64,000 nucleotides of DNA, from assembly GCA_016868665.1 (NCBI GenBank), contig VGGK01000001.1, positions 1 through 64,000 of the forward strand, given 5' to 3'. Positions within the stretch are counted from its first letter, which is position 1. Every line of letters begins with the position of its first letter. Under the pieces are notes generated by a model, which saw nothing but the letters and a program-made list of their open reading frames with translations, did not search any database and had not been told where the DNA came from. Shown here piece after piece: positions 8,386 to 48,984 of the stretch. Origin of the DNA: Chlorobiota bacterium (GTDB lineage: Bacteria > Bacteroidota > Chlorobiia > Chlorobiales > Chlorobiaceae). The position numbers and the translations under genes are program-made.

Positions 8386-8498
8386 GGGAAGCACTGAACA
8401 GTTATTGGGCACCCGAATTGCGCTGGTTGGCCTGTGCTCGAAATCCTCATGTACTGCGTGTACACTCCGGCTTCTCCGCTTCGTCCGCGCCTCTACAA
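8386..8498 (+). mobile_element. Degenerate copy A of a MITE-like repeat
   Basis: Begins two bases after the yjbQ stop codon with GGGAAGCACTGAACAGTTATT, a decayed form of the terminal repeat seen intact at 23803-23974. It then follows the reverse complement of that copy through the conserved core TCATGTACTG...GTGTACACTCCGG to about 8498. The right terminal inverted repeat is missing. Confidence 0.7.
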
Positions 8499-8501
8499 AC
8501 G

Positions 8502-8529
8502 AAAAGGGCCTGCAGTTACAGGCCCTTTT
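8502..8529. terminator. Bidirectional intrinsic terminator
   Basis: A perfect 11-bp stem, AAAAGGGCCTG paired with CAGGCCCTTTT, around a 6-nt loop, with the T-run on either strand supplied by the ends of the stem. It lies between the convergent yjbQ and glnN genes and can serve both. Confidence 0.85.
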
Positions 8530-22023: not shown

Positions 22024-23712
22024 ATGCGAAAAACAGTCAGCTCATTGCTTCTTCTTCTTCTGCTCTGCGTTGCGGGATTATACGGGTGCGGGCAACAAAG
22101 CGGCAACTCCCGCAGCAACCATATCGCTGTAGGTATCTCCTCCGATTTCGATTACCTCAATCCCCTGCTCATACAGCTCTCTCTTTCGCGAGAAGTCTGT
22201 ACGCACATCTATCCGACGCTGGTAAAACCGGAATATAATGAAGAAATAGGCAAGATAACCTACAAGCCGTCGGCGGCAAAAAGCTGGGATTTTTCTGCCG
22301 ACGGAAAAAAAGCGACATTCCATCTGCGCGCGGATGCCGTATGGGAAGACGGGAAAAAGGTAACATCCCACGACTTCAAATTCTCCTACGGCCTCTATAA
22401 AAACCCGAAAATCGCAAGTTCCCGCCAGGACTATCTCGACGACCTCCTTCTGCTGCCGGACGGCACGGCAGATATCGAACGTGCCGTAGAAACGCCTGAC
22501 GACTCAACGCTGGTACTGCATTTCAACAAGCCGCTGGCAAAGGAAATCGTCCTGGACCATTTCAACGACCTGATGCCTGTCGCCAGACATGTGTTCACGG
22601 CGATTCCTGCCGACGAAATAAGAAGCAGGGCAGCCGAACTGCCCATCGTCGGTGCCGGACCATTCAAAGTGAAGGAATGGAAGCGACAGGAAAAACTGGT
22701 ACTGGCTTCCAGCAAATCCTCAGTGCTGCCGCACCCGGCAGTTACCGGAACCATAACCTTTCTCGTTATACCGGAATATACGACAAGACTTGCCATGCTG
22801 AAATCGGGACAGATCGACGCGCTTATTTCCGCTGGCGGCATCACCCCGAGGGACGCCGTCGAACTGAAAACCACAAACCCGGAAATAGCCATCAAACCGG
22901 TACGCAACCGCTACTTCGACAGCGTAGTATGGCTGAACATCGACGGCGAACAGTACCGCACTTCAAGAGCCATAGCGCCGAACCGCTTTTTCGGCGATCG
23001 CACTGTACGTCGGGCAATGACTTATGCCATCGATCGGGAATCGATCATCGACGGCTTCATGGGGACGGACCACGCCGTCATCGTCAATACCTCGCTCTCG
23101 CCCGCATATACGGCAATAACCAACCGATCCATGGAGCCCTTTTCTTATAACCCGGCAAAAGCCAGGGAACTGCTCAAAGCCGCAGGCTGGAGCGCCGGAC
23201 CGGACGGCATCCTGCAGAAAAACGGCCTCAGGTTCTCCTTCGAACTTGCAGCTCCTGTCGGCAATCCTCGCAGGAACTATGCCGCCACAATCATTCAGCA
23301 GAACCTGAGGGATATCGGTATCGAATGCCGCCTGAGGTTTGACGAAAGCCTCATTTTCAACACAAACCAGAACGAATTCCGCTACGATGCCGCGCTATCC
23401 GGCCTTGCCGCGGAAACACTGCCGTTCCAGCTTATTATCTGGGGCAGTGATTTCGCCAACAGACCATTCAACTCTTCCGCTTTCCGGAATGCCGAACTCG
23501 ACAGGGCCATAGCCGAACTCGGCGGGCCGCTTGATGACGCGAGGCAGGCGACCCTCTGGAAAACCTACCAGCAGATCCTGAACGATGAGCAGCCGAGGAC
23601 ATTCCTGTATTATTACGATGAACTCGAAGGGTTCGGCGGACGCATGGAAAACGTCGAGGTCAACCTGCTCTCGACGCTCTACAACGTCTATGACTGGCAG
23701 CTGAAACCCTGA
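22024..23712 (+). CDS. Extracellular solute-binding lipoprotein, family 5 (Opp/Dpp type)
   Basis: 562 residues. The N-terminus is a lipoprotein signal: Met-Arg-Lys, a poly-leucine core, and a lipobox ending LYGC with lipidated Cys22. The body is an SBP_bac_5 domain with the usual start (AVGISSDFDYLNPLL) and the VRRAMTYAIDRESIIDGFMG signature near residue 330. Such proteins capture oligopeptides, nickel or other ligands for an ABC importer. No permease or ATPase gene is next to it. A terminator hairpin follows the stop. Confidence 0.9.
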   Translation: MRKTVSSLLLLLLLCVAGLYGCGQQSGNSRSNHIAVGISSDFDYLNPLLIQLSLSREVCTHIYPTLVKPEYNEEIGKITYKPSAAKSWDFSADGKKATFHLRADAVWEDGKKVTSHDFKFSYGLYKNPKIASSRQDYLDDLLLLPDGTADIERAVETPDDSTLVLHFNKPLAKEIVLDHFNDLMPVARHVFTAIPADEIRSRAAELPIVGAGPFKVKEWKRQEKLVLASSKSSVLPHPAVTGTITFLVIPEYTTRLAMLKSGQIDALISAGGITPRDAVELKTTNPEIAIKPVRNRYFDSVVWLNIDGEQYRTSRAIAPNRFFGDRTVRRAMTYAIDRESIIDGFMGTDHAVIVNTSLSPAYTAITNRSMEPFSYNPAKARELLKAAGWSAGPDGILQKNGLRFSFELAAPVGNPRRNYAATIIQQNLRDIGIECRLRFDESLIFNTNQNEFRYDAALSGLAAETLPFQLIIWGSDFANRPFNSSAFRNAELDRAIAELGGPLDDARQATLWKTYQQILNDEQPRTFLYYYDELEGFGGRMENVEVNLLSTLYNVYDWQLKP

Positions 23713-23724
23713 TCTGAGGAAGAA

Positions 23725-23742
23725 CCGGCAGGCATTTGCCGG
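23725..23742 (+). terminator. Intrinsic terminator
   Basis: CCGGCA paired with TGCCGG over a 6-nt loop, followed by a T-rich stretch (TTCTATTTTCTT), 13 bp after the binding-protein stop codon. Confidence 0.6.
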
Positions 23743-23802
23743 CCTGTTCTATTTTCTTATATTCAACCACATTTCGACGCACAAGATGCGCCACTTACAT
23801 AA

Positions 23803-23974
23803 GGGAACCTCTAAAAAGTGTGATGAGCGAACAAAGAATCAAGCTCCATAAAGGGGCGCGAGTGTAAAGGCATGGATGGCGCGGAGAAACCGGAGTGTAC
23901 ACCACAGTACATGAGGATTTAGAGCACCGACCAACGAAGCAATTTGGTCGCACAATAACTTTTTAGAGGTTCCC
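23803..23974 (-). mobile_element. Intact MITE-like element, copy B
   Basis: A 172-bp element bounded by a perfect 17-bp terminal inverted repeat: GGGAACCTCTAAAAAGT at 23803-23819 and its exact complement at 23958-23974. Four-base direct repeats ATAA flank it at 23799-23802 and 23975-23978, as expected of a target duplication. It has no ORF. The core (GGAGTGTAC...CAGTACATGAGGATTT) recurs in inverse orientation at 8.4, 43.9 and 46.8 kb. Its right end is 21 bp before the bchF start codon. Confidence 0.85.
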
Positions 23975-23995
23975 ATAAAGCCAAATCATTTTTTT

Positions 23996-24469
23996 ATGCC
24001 CCGTTATACTCCGGAACAGCTTGCAAGGCGAAACGCATCCCCATGGACGAAATCACAGGCCATTCTCGCACCTATCCAGTTCCTGATTTTTCTTGCAGGA
24101 CTCACCGTTACATGGCTCTATAAAGAAGGCATCTGGATCGAGGACTTCGGATGGGTCACCTTTTTCGTAACCCTTAAAACCTTCATGCTCTTCCTGATTT
24201 TCATCACCGGTGCATTTTTTGAAAAAGAAGTTTTCGGCGCGTATGCGTTCGCACCGGAATTTTTCTGGGAAGATTTCGGCAGCGCCATCGCCATGATCGT
24301 GCATATCGCCTATTTCGTACTCTTTTTTCAGGGTCTCGACGAAAATTTCCTGATATGGACGGCACTGCTTGCGTACCTGAGCTACCTTGTCAATGCCGCC
24401 CAGTTCGTTATCCGTCTGCTGCTTGAAAAGCATAACGAGAAAAAACTCAAACAGCAGCAGATCGCCTGA
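23996..24469 (+). CDS. bchF: 3-vinyl bacteriochlorophyllide hydratase BchF
   Basis: 157 residues, an integral membrane protein with about four transmembrane segments. It opens with the family signature MPRYTPEQLARRNAS and contains the GAFFEKEVFG and FFWEDFGS motifs. BchF hydrates the C3 vinyl group to 3-hydroxyethyl in bacteriochlorophyll synthesis; green sulfur bacteria also carry the paralogue BchV. Adjacent bchC, which acts on the hydroxyethyl product, favours BchF over BchV. No ribosome-binding site is evident, and the leader is shared with the end of a MITE-like element. Confidence 0.9.
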   Translation: MPRYTPEQLARRNASPWTKSQAILAPIQFLIFLAGLTVTWLYKEGIWIEDFGWVTFFVTLKTFMLFLIFITGAFFEKEVFGAYAFAPEFFWEDFGSAIAMIVHIAYFVLFFQGLDENFLIWTALLAYLSYLVNAAQFVIRLLLEKHNEKKLKQQQIA

Positions 24470-24485
24470 ACCGTATCCTGATATC

Positions 24486-25490
24486 ATGAAATCAAAAGCA
24501 ATTGTTTTCAGCGGCGTTCAGCAGGTTTCTCTTGCAGAGGTAACCCTCAAGCCACTTTCCTCGACCGACGTGCTCGTTGAAACCTACTGGTCATCCATCA
24601 GCACAGGCACCGAAAAAATGGCCTATAACGGTCTTATCCCGTCACCTCCCTTTATCTATCCCTTCATTCCCGGCTATGAAACCGTGGGAAAGATCATCGA
24701 TGCAGGCGACCATGTCAACCAGAACCTCATCGGAAAGTTCGCCTATGTGGCTGGCTCATTCGGCTACAGCGACGTCAACGCAGCTTTCGGCGGCGCATCG
24801 CAGTTCATCGCATGCCCGGTTGACAGCATCACCATTCTCGACGTCATAGCCAACCCGCAATGCGGCATCGCGCTCCCGCTCGGGGCCACGGCGCTGCATA
24901 TCGTCGATCTGGCAAACGTGAAAAACAGGAAAGTACTGATACTCGGACAGGGTGCCGTTGGCATTCTCGCAGCGGAACTGGCCCGCCATATGGGCGCGAA
25001 ACTCGTTGCCGCCACCGAACCTCATCAGAACAGACTCAAGTACTCCCCTGCCGACCTTAAGGTCAACCCGGAAACTGAAGATGTATCGGCCGCGCTGGCC
25101 GGACATGAATTCGATGTTCTTATCGACAGCACCGGCATTATGAGCGCCATCGATACCGGCTTGCGATTCCTCAAATTTCACGGCCTGGTGATTTTCGGAG
25201 GATATTACCAGCGAATCAACATCGATTACTCCCAGGCTTTTCAGAAAGAGCTTTCGTTTATTGCAGCTCGACAGTGGGCTCAGGGCGATCTCGAACGGGT
25301 GCGCGACCTCATTGCCGCAAAAAAGCTGAACGCCGAAAAGATATTCACTCACCAGTGTGATGTGAATGAAAACATCACCTCAATCTACATGCAGGCATTC
25401 AGCGATCCGGACTGCCTGAAGATGATACTGCACTGGAAACCGGAAGCCGAAGAGCAGAAAACCGCCTGTTACATGACCGGCAATATCTGA
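24486..25490 (+). CDS. bchC: 3-hydroxyethyl bacteriochlorophyllide a dehydrogenase BchC
   Basis: 334 residues of the medium-chain dehydrogenase fold. An N-terminal GroES-like domain carries STGTEKM and FPIPGYET-like segments (YPFIPGYETVGKI). The Rossmann domain has GQGAVG and an acidic TEPH end to the second strand. It oxidises the C3 hydroxyethyl to acetyl in BChl a synthesis. The frame is open back to 24387 inside bchF, but MKSKAIVFSGVQQ at 24486 is the family start. Gaps of 16 bp from bchF and 8 bp to bchX indicate one operon. Confidence 0.93.
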   Translation: MKSKAIVFSGVQQVSLAEVTLKPLSSTDVLVETYWSSISTGTEKMAYNGLIPSPPFIYPFIPGYETVGKIIDAGDHVNQNLIGKFAYVAGSFGYSDVNAAFGGASQFIACPVDSITILDVIANPQCGIALPLGATALHIVDLANVKNRKVLILGQGAVGILAAELARHMGAKLVAATEPHQNRLKYSPADLKVNPETEDVSAALAGHEFDVLIDSTGIMSAIDTGLRFLKFHGLVIFGGYYQRINIDYSQAFQKELSFIAARQWAQGDLERVRDLIAAKKLNAEKIFTHQCDVNENITSIYMQAFSDPDCLKMILHWKPEAEEQKTACYMTGNI

Positions 25491-25498
25491 GGAGAATT

Positions 25499-26605
25499 AT
25501 GGCAGCAAGAACCATTGCGATCTACGGCAAGGGAGGAATAGGAAAAAGCTTTACCACAACAAACCTCAGCGCCACCTTTGCGATGATGGACAAGATGGTG
25601 CTGCAGCTTGGCTGTGACCCCAAACACGACTCCACGACATCGCTTTTCGGTGGCATCTCCCTGCCGACCGTTACGGATGTATTCGCAAAAAAAAATGCAG
25701 AAAACGAGCCGGTCAGAATAAGCGACATCGTTTTCCGACGCGATGTACCCGGTTTTCCTCAACCGATCTACGGCATCGAACTCGGCGGCCCCCAGATAGG
25801 ACGCGGCTGCGGCGGACGCGGCATCATTTCGGGATTCGACGTACTTGAAAAGCTCGGCATTTTCAAGTGGGATATCGACATCATTCTCATGGACTTTCTC
25901 GGCGACGTGGTATGCGGAGGATTTGCAACCCCCCTTGCCCGTTCCCTCAGTGAAGAGGTGATTCTCGTCACGAGTAACGACCGGCAATCCATCTTCACGG
26001 CCAACAATATCTGTCAGGCCAATAACTACTTTAAAACCGTAGGAGGACAGTCGCGTCTGCTCGGCTTGATAGTCAACAGGGATGACGGGTCCGGCGTAGC
26101 TGAAAAATATGCGGAGGCCGCAGGCATTACGGTTCTCATGAAGGTACCCTACAACACCGAAGCTCGCGACCGGGACGACAGTTTCGATTTTGCCATCGGA
26201 CTGCCGGAAATAGGCGGACAATACCGGAAGCTTGCTGCCGATATTCTCGAACACCGCATCAAGCCATGTGAAGCCAGGGGCCTTGATTTTGAAGAATTCA
26301 TCCGCCTGTTCGGCGACGTAAGCGAGGATGATCCGGTACCGGCAACAGAAGACGAGCTTTTCGGAAAACCGGGCAATAAGCCATCATGCAGAATACCGTC
26401 AGAATCAATTTCTCCCGAAGACCAAAAGCTGGAGGATTGCCTTGGACGCCTTCCTGAAGCCGAACAGCATGCCTACCGCATGTCGGAACACGAACAACGT
26501 ACAGAATCTGATATTGCCGAAGCCCTGCATATCGATGAAAAAGAGGTCAAAGCTCTGCTCTCCTCAGCACGCCGACAGCTCAGGAAACTGTTTTTCGATA
26601 CTTGA
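25499..26605 (+). CDS. bchX: Chlorophyllide a reductase iron protein BchX with a C-terminal sigma-4-like domain
   Basis: The NifH-like ATPase of chlorophyllide a reductase, which delivers electrons to BchYZ to reduce the B ring. The P-loop GKGGIGKS is at residues 10-17; cluster ligands are Cys139 in VVCGGF and probably Cys172 in NNICQA; RGCGGRGI at 102-109 is BchX-specific. The start follows a GGAGA site. The catalytic core ends near residue 275. After a linker, residues 305-368 read as a sigma-70 region 4/ECF-type helix-turn-helix (LPEAEQ..., SDIAEALHIDEKEVKALL, SSARRQLRKLF), not expected in an iron protein. bchY and bchZ are not in the window. Confidence 0.93.
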   Translation: MAARTIAIYGKGGIGKSFTTTNLSATFAMMDKMVLQLGCDPKHDSTTSLFGGISLPTVTDVFAKKNAENEPVRISDIVFRRDVPGFPQPIYGIELGGPQIGRGCGGRGIISGFDVLEKLGIFKWDIDIILMDFLGDVVCGGFATPLARSLSEEVILVTSNDRQSIFTANNICQANNYFKTVGGQSRLLGLIVNRDDGSGVAEKYAEAAGITVLMKVPYNTEARDRDDSFDFAIGLPEIGGQYRKLAADILEHRIKPCEARGLDFEEFIRLFGDVSEDDPVPATEDELFGKPGNKPSCRIPSESISPEDQKLEDCLGRLPEAEQHAYRMSEHEQRTESDIAEALHIDEKEVKALLSSARRQLRKLFFDT

Positions 26606-43818: not shown

Positions 43819-43970
43819 GGGCACCTCGAAAAAGTTATTCCGCACCCGGATTGCCGCGTTGGCCCGACAAGTCGGGATCGAAATCCTCATGTACTGTGGG
43901 TGTACACTCCGGTTTCTCAGCTCCGTCCGCCTTGCACTCCGGATGCTCACGACACGTTTTCGAAGTGCCC
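43819..43970 (+). mobile_element. MITE-like element, copy C
   Basis: 152 bp starting GGGCACCTCGAAAAAGT and ending with ACGTTTTCGAAGTGCCC, terminal inverted repeats matching at 15 of 17 positions. ATAA flanks both sides (43815-43818 and 43971-43974). The core TCATGTACTG...GTGTACACTCCGGTTTCTC matches the other copies. No ORF. Confidence 0.82.
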
Positions 43971-46802: not shown

Positions 46803-46900
46803 GGGAACTCCTGAAAAGTTATTACGCACTCGAATTACTCTGGTTGGCCGGTGCTTGAAATTTTCATGTACTACGCGAAGATTCCCGGATGCTCCGTTTC
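46803..46900 (+). mobile_element. Degenerate MITE copy D
   Basis: Begins GGGAACTCCTGAAAAGTTATTACGCACTCGAATT directly after ATAA (46799-46802) and keeps the core TTTCATGTACTACG. It then loses the middle; only CCCGGATGCTCC is shared beyond that, and no right terminal repeat is seen. It lies 39 bp upstream of the Sel1 gene start. Confidence 0.65.
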
Positions 46901-47006
46901 AAATGCTCCCGGTTACTTGGGCTTTTTTATGAAGTTTGCTTTTGCTTGCGATAATCACCTGCAACAAGTGTGAAAAGATCATTTGGTATTAACTGCATAA
47001 AAAAAC

Positions 47007-48062: not shown

Positions 48063-48267
48063 TCAGTACCTCCATTTAAGATTTAGCTGTTGAACTATCG
48101 TTTCGATGAAAAAAAATCGTCTGATGTTCGGAATAACCCGAATCCTGATTAGTGGGCATCTCTATTAATTCGAAAGCGACCTATCTTTCATAATAAAAAT
48201 AACTTAGCGTTCATAAAAAGGCCGAAAATCCGTATATTTCAGCAGATTTCTTCATTCACTGCCTGCT
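48063..48267. other. Intergenic region upstream of the autotransporter
   Basis: AT-rich, about 205 bp, presumably holding the autotransporter promoter on the minus strand. I see no other gene. Confidence 0.35.
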
Positions 48268-48567
48268 GTCACGAAAAATATCAATCCTCTCGGCCTTTTC
48301 GACGAATGCTTCCTCCTTGAGCGGCTCACAAAGCTTAAAGACCCGCTCGTAAAACTGGAGGCCTATATCGACTGGAACATCTTTGTCCCGATCCTGAATA
48401 TTGGCTTCATGACCAATTCGATGCAGGCCATGTACATCAGAACCATAGGATACGCAAAGGCGACAGCAAAGATCGGCTTGGCCAATCTTACCTACAACAT
48501 GATGCGATGCATTCAGTTGAACAAACGAGTCGACAATGTGTTCCTATGGGATAGCTACGCCCAGTAG
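48268..48567 (+). pseudogene. IS5-family transposase with internal deletion
   Basis: An open frame without a start codon. Its first ~40 residues (KNINPLGLFDECFLLERL, DPLVKLEAYIDW) are the N-terminus of an IS5-family transposase. Its last ~55 (GFMTNSMQAMYIRTIGYAKA, NLTYNMMRCIQL) are the C-terminus. The two are fused in frame near 48400, so the catalytic middle with the DDE residues is gone. No IS ends were found. Confidence 0.8.
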
Positions 48568-48984
48568 ATCCTTTCAGGAGTATTTTCAGCCCTGAATGTG
48601 TCAAAGAACGGTGTTTTTTTTTGAATCGACTACGAGCTTTCCGGCTGATCCATGTACAGAGACATATAAAAAGCTCAATTAATCGTGGTTCCCTATAACG
48701 ATATAATATAAAATAAAGCTATTGCAAGAGTATATATATTGTATTATATGAGAAATTGCAATATATACGGTTTTTGTATGTGTCTTTGTTGTAAACGTTT
48801 TAAATGCATATGGATAGGTGTTTTTGTGAATGTCAATTTATTTATGACACAATACGGATATTAGTTTGCATTATCAGAACATTCCGAAAATTCCATCCCG
48901 AAAGAATCGCCTTGCCGTCGAGGCTGACCGTATTGTAGTGGACCCCGTTTTTCAAACAAAGCGGGTAAGCCCGTAGGGGAGTTC
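48568..48984. other. Intergenic region before the reverse transcriptase
   Basis: About 415 bp, AT-rich to 48850 and then GC-richer. The part from about 48935 (CCCCGTTTTTCAAACAAAGCGGGTAAGCCCGTAGGGG) may be the remnant of group II intron RNA upstream of the ORF, but no GUGYG-type 5' end is recognisable. Confidence 0.35.

Follow-up and report, generated by a model that had tools for sequence, protein, structure and literature searches.

An IS5-type MITE between a conserved promoter-like box and the start codon of bchF in a member of the Chlorobiaceae

In Neisseria, a Correia element lies just downstream of the mtrCDE promoter and is cleaved by RNase III (PMC10969869). The YPAL/RU-2 and ERIC repeats of enterobacteria are intergenic, palindromic and MITE-like, with lengths of 127-168 bp (PMC2759123). 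Here we describe an element of this general kind ahead of a bacteriochlorophyll operon in a Chlorobiota bacterium of the family Chlorobiaceae. The window analysed is a stretch of 64,000 nucleotides (contig VGGK01000001.1, positions 1 to 64,000), and its features are collected in Table 1. The locus amounts to a natural experiment: in a single bacteriochlorophyll operon, 172 bp of inserted, folded sequence now separate an invariant promoter box from the start codon. Its comparison with relatives brings to light a very conserved putative bchF promoter in green sulfur bacteria.

Table 1. Coordinates of features around the insertion upstream of bchF (positions within the window).
Feature	Position	Strand	Basis or match
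Family 5 extracellular solute-binding protein (upstream gene)	22024..23712	+	PF00496
Hairpin resembling a terminator, 3′ of the upstream gene; overlaps the -35 region of the putative bchF promoter	23725..23748	+	
Putative native bchF promoter, TTGCCG-N16-TATATT; conservation goes on through CAACCAC to 23770	23736..23763	+	conservation
Predicted bchFCX leader, ~226 nt	23770..23995	+	start placed from the -10 position
Target-site duplication ATAA, left copy	23799..23802	+	
MITE, 172 bp	23803..23974	+	repeats, blastn copies, duplications, covariance-model matches
Left terminal inverted repeat, GGGAACCTCTAAAAAGT	23803..23819	+	19/19 identical to the IS5-family end in locus L170
16-codon ATG reading frame within the MITE	23872..23922	+	read from the sequence
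Conserved folded core, common to enterobacterial repeats	23881..23927	+	
Right terminal inverted repeat	23958..23974	+	
Target-site duplication ATAA, right copy	23975..23978	+	
bchF, 3-vinyl bacteriochlorophyllide hydratase	23996..24469	+	PF07284 (BCHF family)
bchC-like zinc-binding dehydrogenase	24486..25490	+	
bchX	25499..26605	+	PF00142 (Fer4_NifH), NifH-like

The element upstream of bchF is a non-autonomous IS5-type MITE and a member of a Chlorobiaceae MITE family. It is short and lacks a transposase gene, its terminal repeats (GGGAACCTCTAAAAAGT) are perfect inverted repeats matching each other at 17 of 17 positions, it is bounded by a target-site duplication, dispersed copies exist, and a partner transposon carries the same ends. 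The original prediction had called the element a MITE, and the inverted repeats, the ATAA duplication and the dispersed copies bear this out; the predicted gap of 21 bp between its end at 23974 and the bchF ATG at 23996 is also correct. The 16-codon reading frame, the longest ATG frame noted within the MITE, gave no sign of translation. Downstream of the MITE the genes follow in the order bchF, bchC-like dehydrogenase and bchX. As a separate observation, the C-terminal residues 309-361 of BchX (25499-26605) match sigma-70 region 4 (Pfam E 6e-9); in most relatives the BchX match reaches the C-terminal end, and a search with the tail alone returned 61 hits within the bchF loci.

Within its own genome the element has 28 matches by blastn and 29 by a covariance model made from 34 copies. 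Matches were detected by blastn in 42 of 86 genomes of the family, and by the covariance model in 24 genomes of a phylum sample of 148, all but one of which belong to the same family. Copies are usually 142 bp long, and the bchF copy exceeds this length owing to additional sequence in its left half. The closest of the other copies shares 85-86% identity with the bchF element, and repeat collapse or misjoining during assembly is therefore unlikely. Exact 4-bp target duplications flank 20 of the 32 well-ended copies, compared with a mean of 1.4 when flanks were shuffled. The copies are almost all intergenic and are found in convergent, divergent and tandem settings, with leaders not preferred. 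The window itself contains two further copies on the minus strand (8386-8526 and 43819-43970; covariance model) and a weak third further match (46803-46939). Elsewhere, a copy lies between two of three Chlorobi-1 RNAs (RF01696) encoded on the minus strand of locus L002 (1378-2331), and in locus L004 (around 1501-1650) the 4-bp target duplication of a copy overlaps an ATG beside a gene start.

Related species contain elements of ~1.3 kb that encode a transposase with DUF772 and DDE_Tnp_1 domains and have ends such as GGGCACCTCTAAAAA. These transposases fall within the NCBIfam IS5 family (NF033581, transpos_IS5_4; PF05598 and PF01609), one IS5-family end is identical to the MITE end at all 19 bases compared (locus L170), and end variants such as CTCTATTTATT are found in insertion sequences and MITEs alike. 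It was the PF05598 profile that led to the partner transposase; as search routes, PF01609 gave 0 matches in the genome carrying the bchF insertion, and PF13586 gave 0 there and few in relatives. In this genome we found only an internally deleted IS5-family relic (window 48154-48693), in which N- and C-terminal transposase pieces are flanked by IS-type ends, and the MITE may therefore not be mobile at present; the assembly consists of 100 contigs, so that an intact IS5-family copy could be missed.

The original prediction had proposed comparing the bchF leader with that of relatives lacking the insertion, and had held that the same element at this place in all relatives with normal expression would speak against it. 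Among 70 bchF loci of Chlorobiaceae, none carries the element at bchF, and the insertion is therefore private to its own genome in the sampled set, where the nearest bchF genes are only 84% identical in DNA and the comparison is one with relatives at that distance or beyond. The empty site of the relatives aligns with the bchF leader of the window, and the linker that holds the insertion is poorly conserved among them.

Further upstream of the insertion point, by comparison, lies a very conserved stretch. The hexamer TATATT is located 39-72 nt before the ATG in 70/70 relatives (1.4 in shuffles), where it forms part of a longer run of conservation, TTTTnCTATATTCAACnACnTTT. TATATT is intact in the window at 23758-23763, ~40 bp upstream of the MITE, and a promoter scan places TTGCCG 16 bp upstream of it. 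The distance from this box to the ATG is 232 nt; without the MITE and one ATAA it would be 56 nt, inside the range of the relatives. Conservation and position thus point to this sequence as the bchF promoter, and the predicted placement of the MITE in the bchF leader is upheld, with the promoter box upstream and the ATG downstream. On the best reading, the predicted leader has grown from ~50 to 226 nt, about fivefold, if transcription starts at the position suggested by the -10 box. The TTTTnCTATATTCAACnAC box (window 23752-23770) is extremely conserved in Chlorobiaceae, seems specific to bchF and may include an operator. The promoter box was rejected as a motif shared by a wider regulon, since just three near matches occur in the genome, one of them inside atpB. 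Literature on MITEs in Chlorobium and on start-site maps in Chlorobaculum yielded nothing useful.

According to the original prediction, any bchFCX transcript either starts inside the element or reads through it. Read-through is the part that we favour, whereas a start inside the MITE finds no support from the scan and would leave an intact promoter upstream. Outward promoters are present in other MITEs (PMC10969869), and the element could in principle have taken over bchFCX transcription with a promoter of its own; however, the promoter scan detected no promoter-like site in the MITE, the sole site on the + strand being the conserved native one upstream, and we regard such a takeover as very improbable. 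A cryptic promoter of a type outside the coverage of the scan is possible.

The absence of a visible ribosome-binding site before bchF was confirmed, as no Shine-Dalgarno-like sequence is present in the window. Such a sequence was also found in 0/70 relatives; the lack is therefore ancestral, and a link with the MITE is not supported. Folding of the leader is more stable than that of shuffled sequence (z -2.98), and among 34 copies compensatory change is seen at 15 base pairs of the fold. Here, 55 cells changed on both sides, compared with 14.2 in shuffles and 4-17 with slid partners, counts that are not independent events because the copies are related. The covariation backs helices of the terminal repeats as well as helices within the core. 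Pairing of the terminal repeats in RNA, as had been proposed, is thus possible on the basis of the 17/17 repeats and a fold with covariation across copies.

The original prediction further held that such a hairpin could come to lie next to the start codon and alter pigment gene expression. In one form of this idea, the hairpin would hamper the start codon, blocking translation or terminating transcription and so lowering pigment synthesis. A stable fold does adjoin bchF. However, the predicted cost of opening the start region is 5.1 kcal/mol with the MITE, 6.6 kcal/mol at the empty site and 3.0-7.8 kcal/mol in 15 relatives, according to energy models that ignore ribosome and RNase effects. The hairpin is thus predicted to be self-contained and the start codon not to be occluded. 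Moreover, no terminator-like site was found at the 3′ end of the MITE, and the operon shows no decay, the bchF, bchC and bchX reading frames all being intact. These predictions give no loss of access to the start codon, and a blocking hairpin is the least probable of the explanations considered; since the start codon is predicted to be at least as accessible as at the empty site, altered expression is no more than a possibility.

We consider it likely that a single lineage-specific MITE insertion into the bchF 5′ UTR is read through from the native promoter and is probably near-neutral. In this reading, a single insertion event in this lineage placed an IS5-type MITE in the poorly conserved linker, with ~40 bp between it and the -10 box and 21 bp between it and the start codon. 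Transcription of the bchFCX operon would still be driven by the native promoter and read through the MITE, whose RNA would fold on itself, so that access to the start codon and to the final 21 nucleotides of the leader would hardly change. Because of this self-folding and preserved start access, the insertion would probably be nearly neutral, and it may have a modest influence on the processing or stability of the mRNA.

The main rival, suggested by analogy, is that the leader hairpin is cut by RNase III or alters mRNA stability, making the MITE a Correia-like post-transcriptional regulator of bchFCX. The perfect 17-bp terminal stem and the conserved fold are compatible with this, since a 17-bp leader duplex can be cleaved, although the copies show no preference for leaders. 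A stem of 17 bp is short for RNase III, which weakens the case. The Correia element in the mtrCDE leader provides a precedent (PMC10969869), and on balance we judge this regulatory role to be rather unlikely. Compared with altered expression, an insertion that is nearly neutral appears more likely, as does processing by RNase III of the kind known for the Correia elements of Neisseria.

The folded core of the MITE extends beyond the Chlorobiaceae. Intergenic matches to it occur in 5375 of 5426 E. coli genomes, at qseG-qseE and cysP-ucpA among other sites, and it also matches records from Klebsiella, Salmonella, Yersinia, Aeromonas and Comamonas. A model built on Chlorobiaceae copies alone matches seven of the loci outside this family. 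Six of these matches run end to end, and the E values, 3e-24 to 2e-13, are rough owing to a short calibration. The arms of the non-Chlorobiaceae repeats are unlike the Chlorobiaceae ends and unlike each other (GCCTATCCCA in one group, CTTGGTTCA in another), and by eye they are largely self-complementary. The enterobacterial, Aeromonas and Comamonas repeats with the same folded core and other arms are those of loci L148-L154 and L210-L224. We tentatively propose, as a possibility that is somewhat more doubtful than not, a cross-phylum superfamily of palindromic repeats, ~142 nt long, that conserve a folded core but have interchangeable arms, in which arm sequence varies by lineage and pairing is kept. 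If so, one core could, through the IS5-type arms that it has in Chlorobiaceae, be mobilised by different transposases, and the superfamily would connect the intergenic repeats of Enterobacteria, Aeromonas and Comamonas, and perhaps also the sX9 RNA of Xanthomonas. A structured repeat core that recurs in another phylum with different arms could make the reason for its retention testable. The E. coli copies may correspond to repeats that older surveys named RSA; a literature search on RSA repeats found nothing.

How, then, does the element compare with described systems? The terminal repeats of the IS5 family match those of the MITE, and several IS5-type end variants recur in MITEs, whereas the MITE lacks a transposase and its interior is unlike insertion sequences. 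An Rfam search of the MITE gave no match at the curated score: the minus strand of the core resembles sX9, a Xanthomonas sRNA (RF02228), but its score of 26.2 bits in the window, like the highest value from other places (40.9), falls short of the curated 44. YPAL/RU-2 and ERIC are, like the MITE, palindromic intergenic repeats; the published RU-2 sequence is unlike the core by eye, and on this visual comparison an identification of the E. coli copies as YPAL/RU-2 was dropped. Correia/NEMIS elements of Neisseria differ in that no outward promoter was found in the MITE, and the likeness to them is one of architecture and position. They are likewise short and non-autonomous, with inverted repeats that fold in RNA and a known case just downstream of an operon promoter (mtrCDE), and the MITE similarly lies between a promoter, as recognized by its conservation, and the start codon of an operon.
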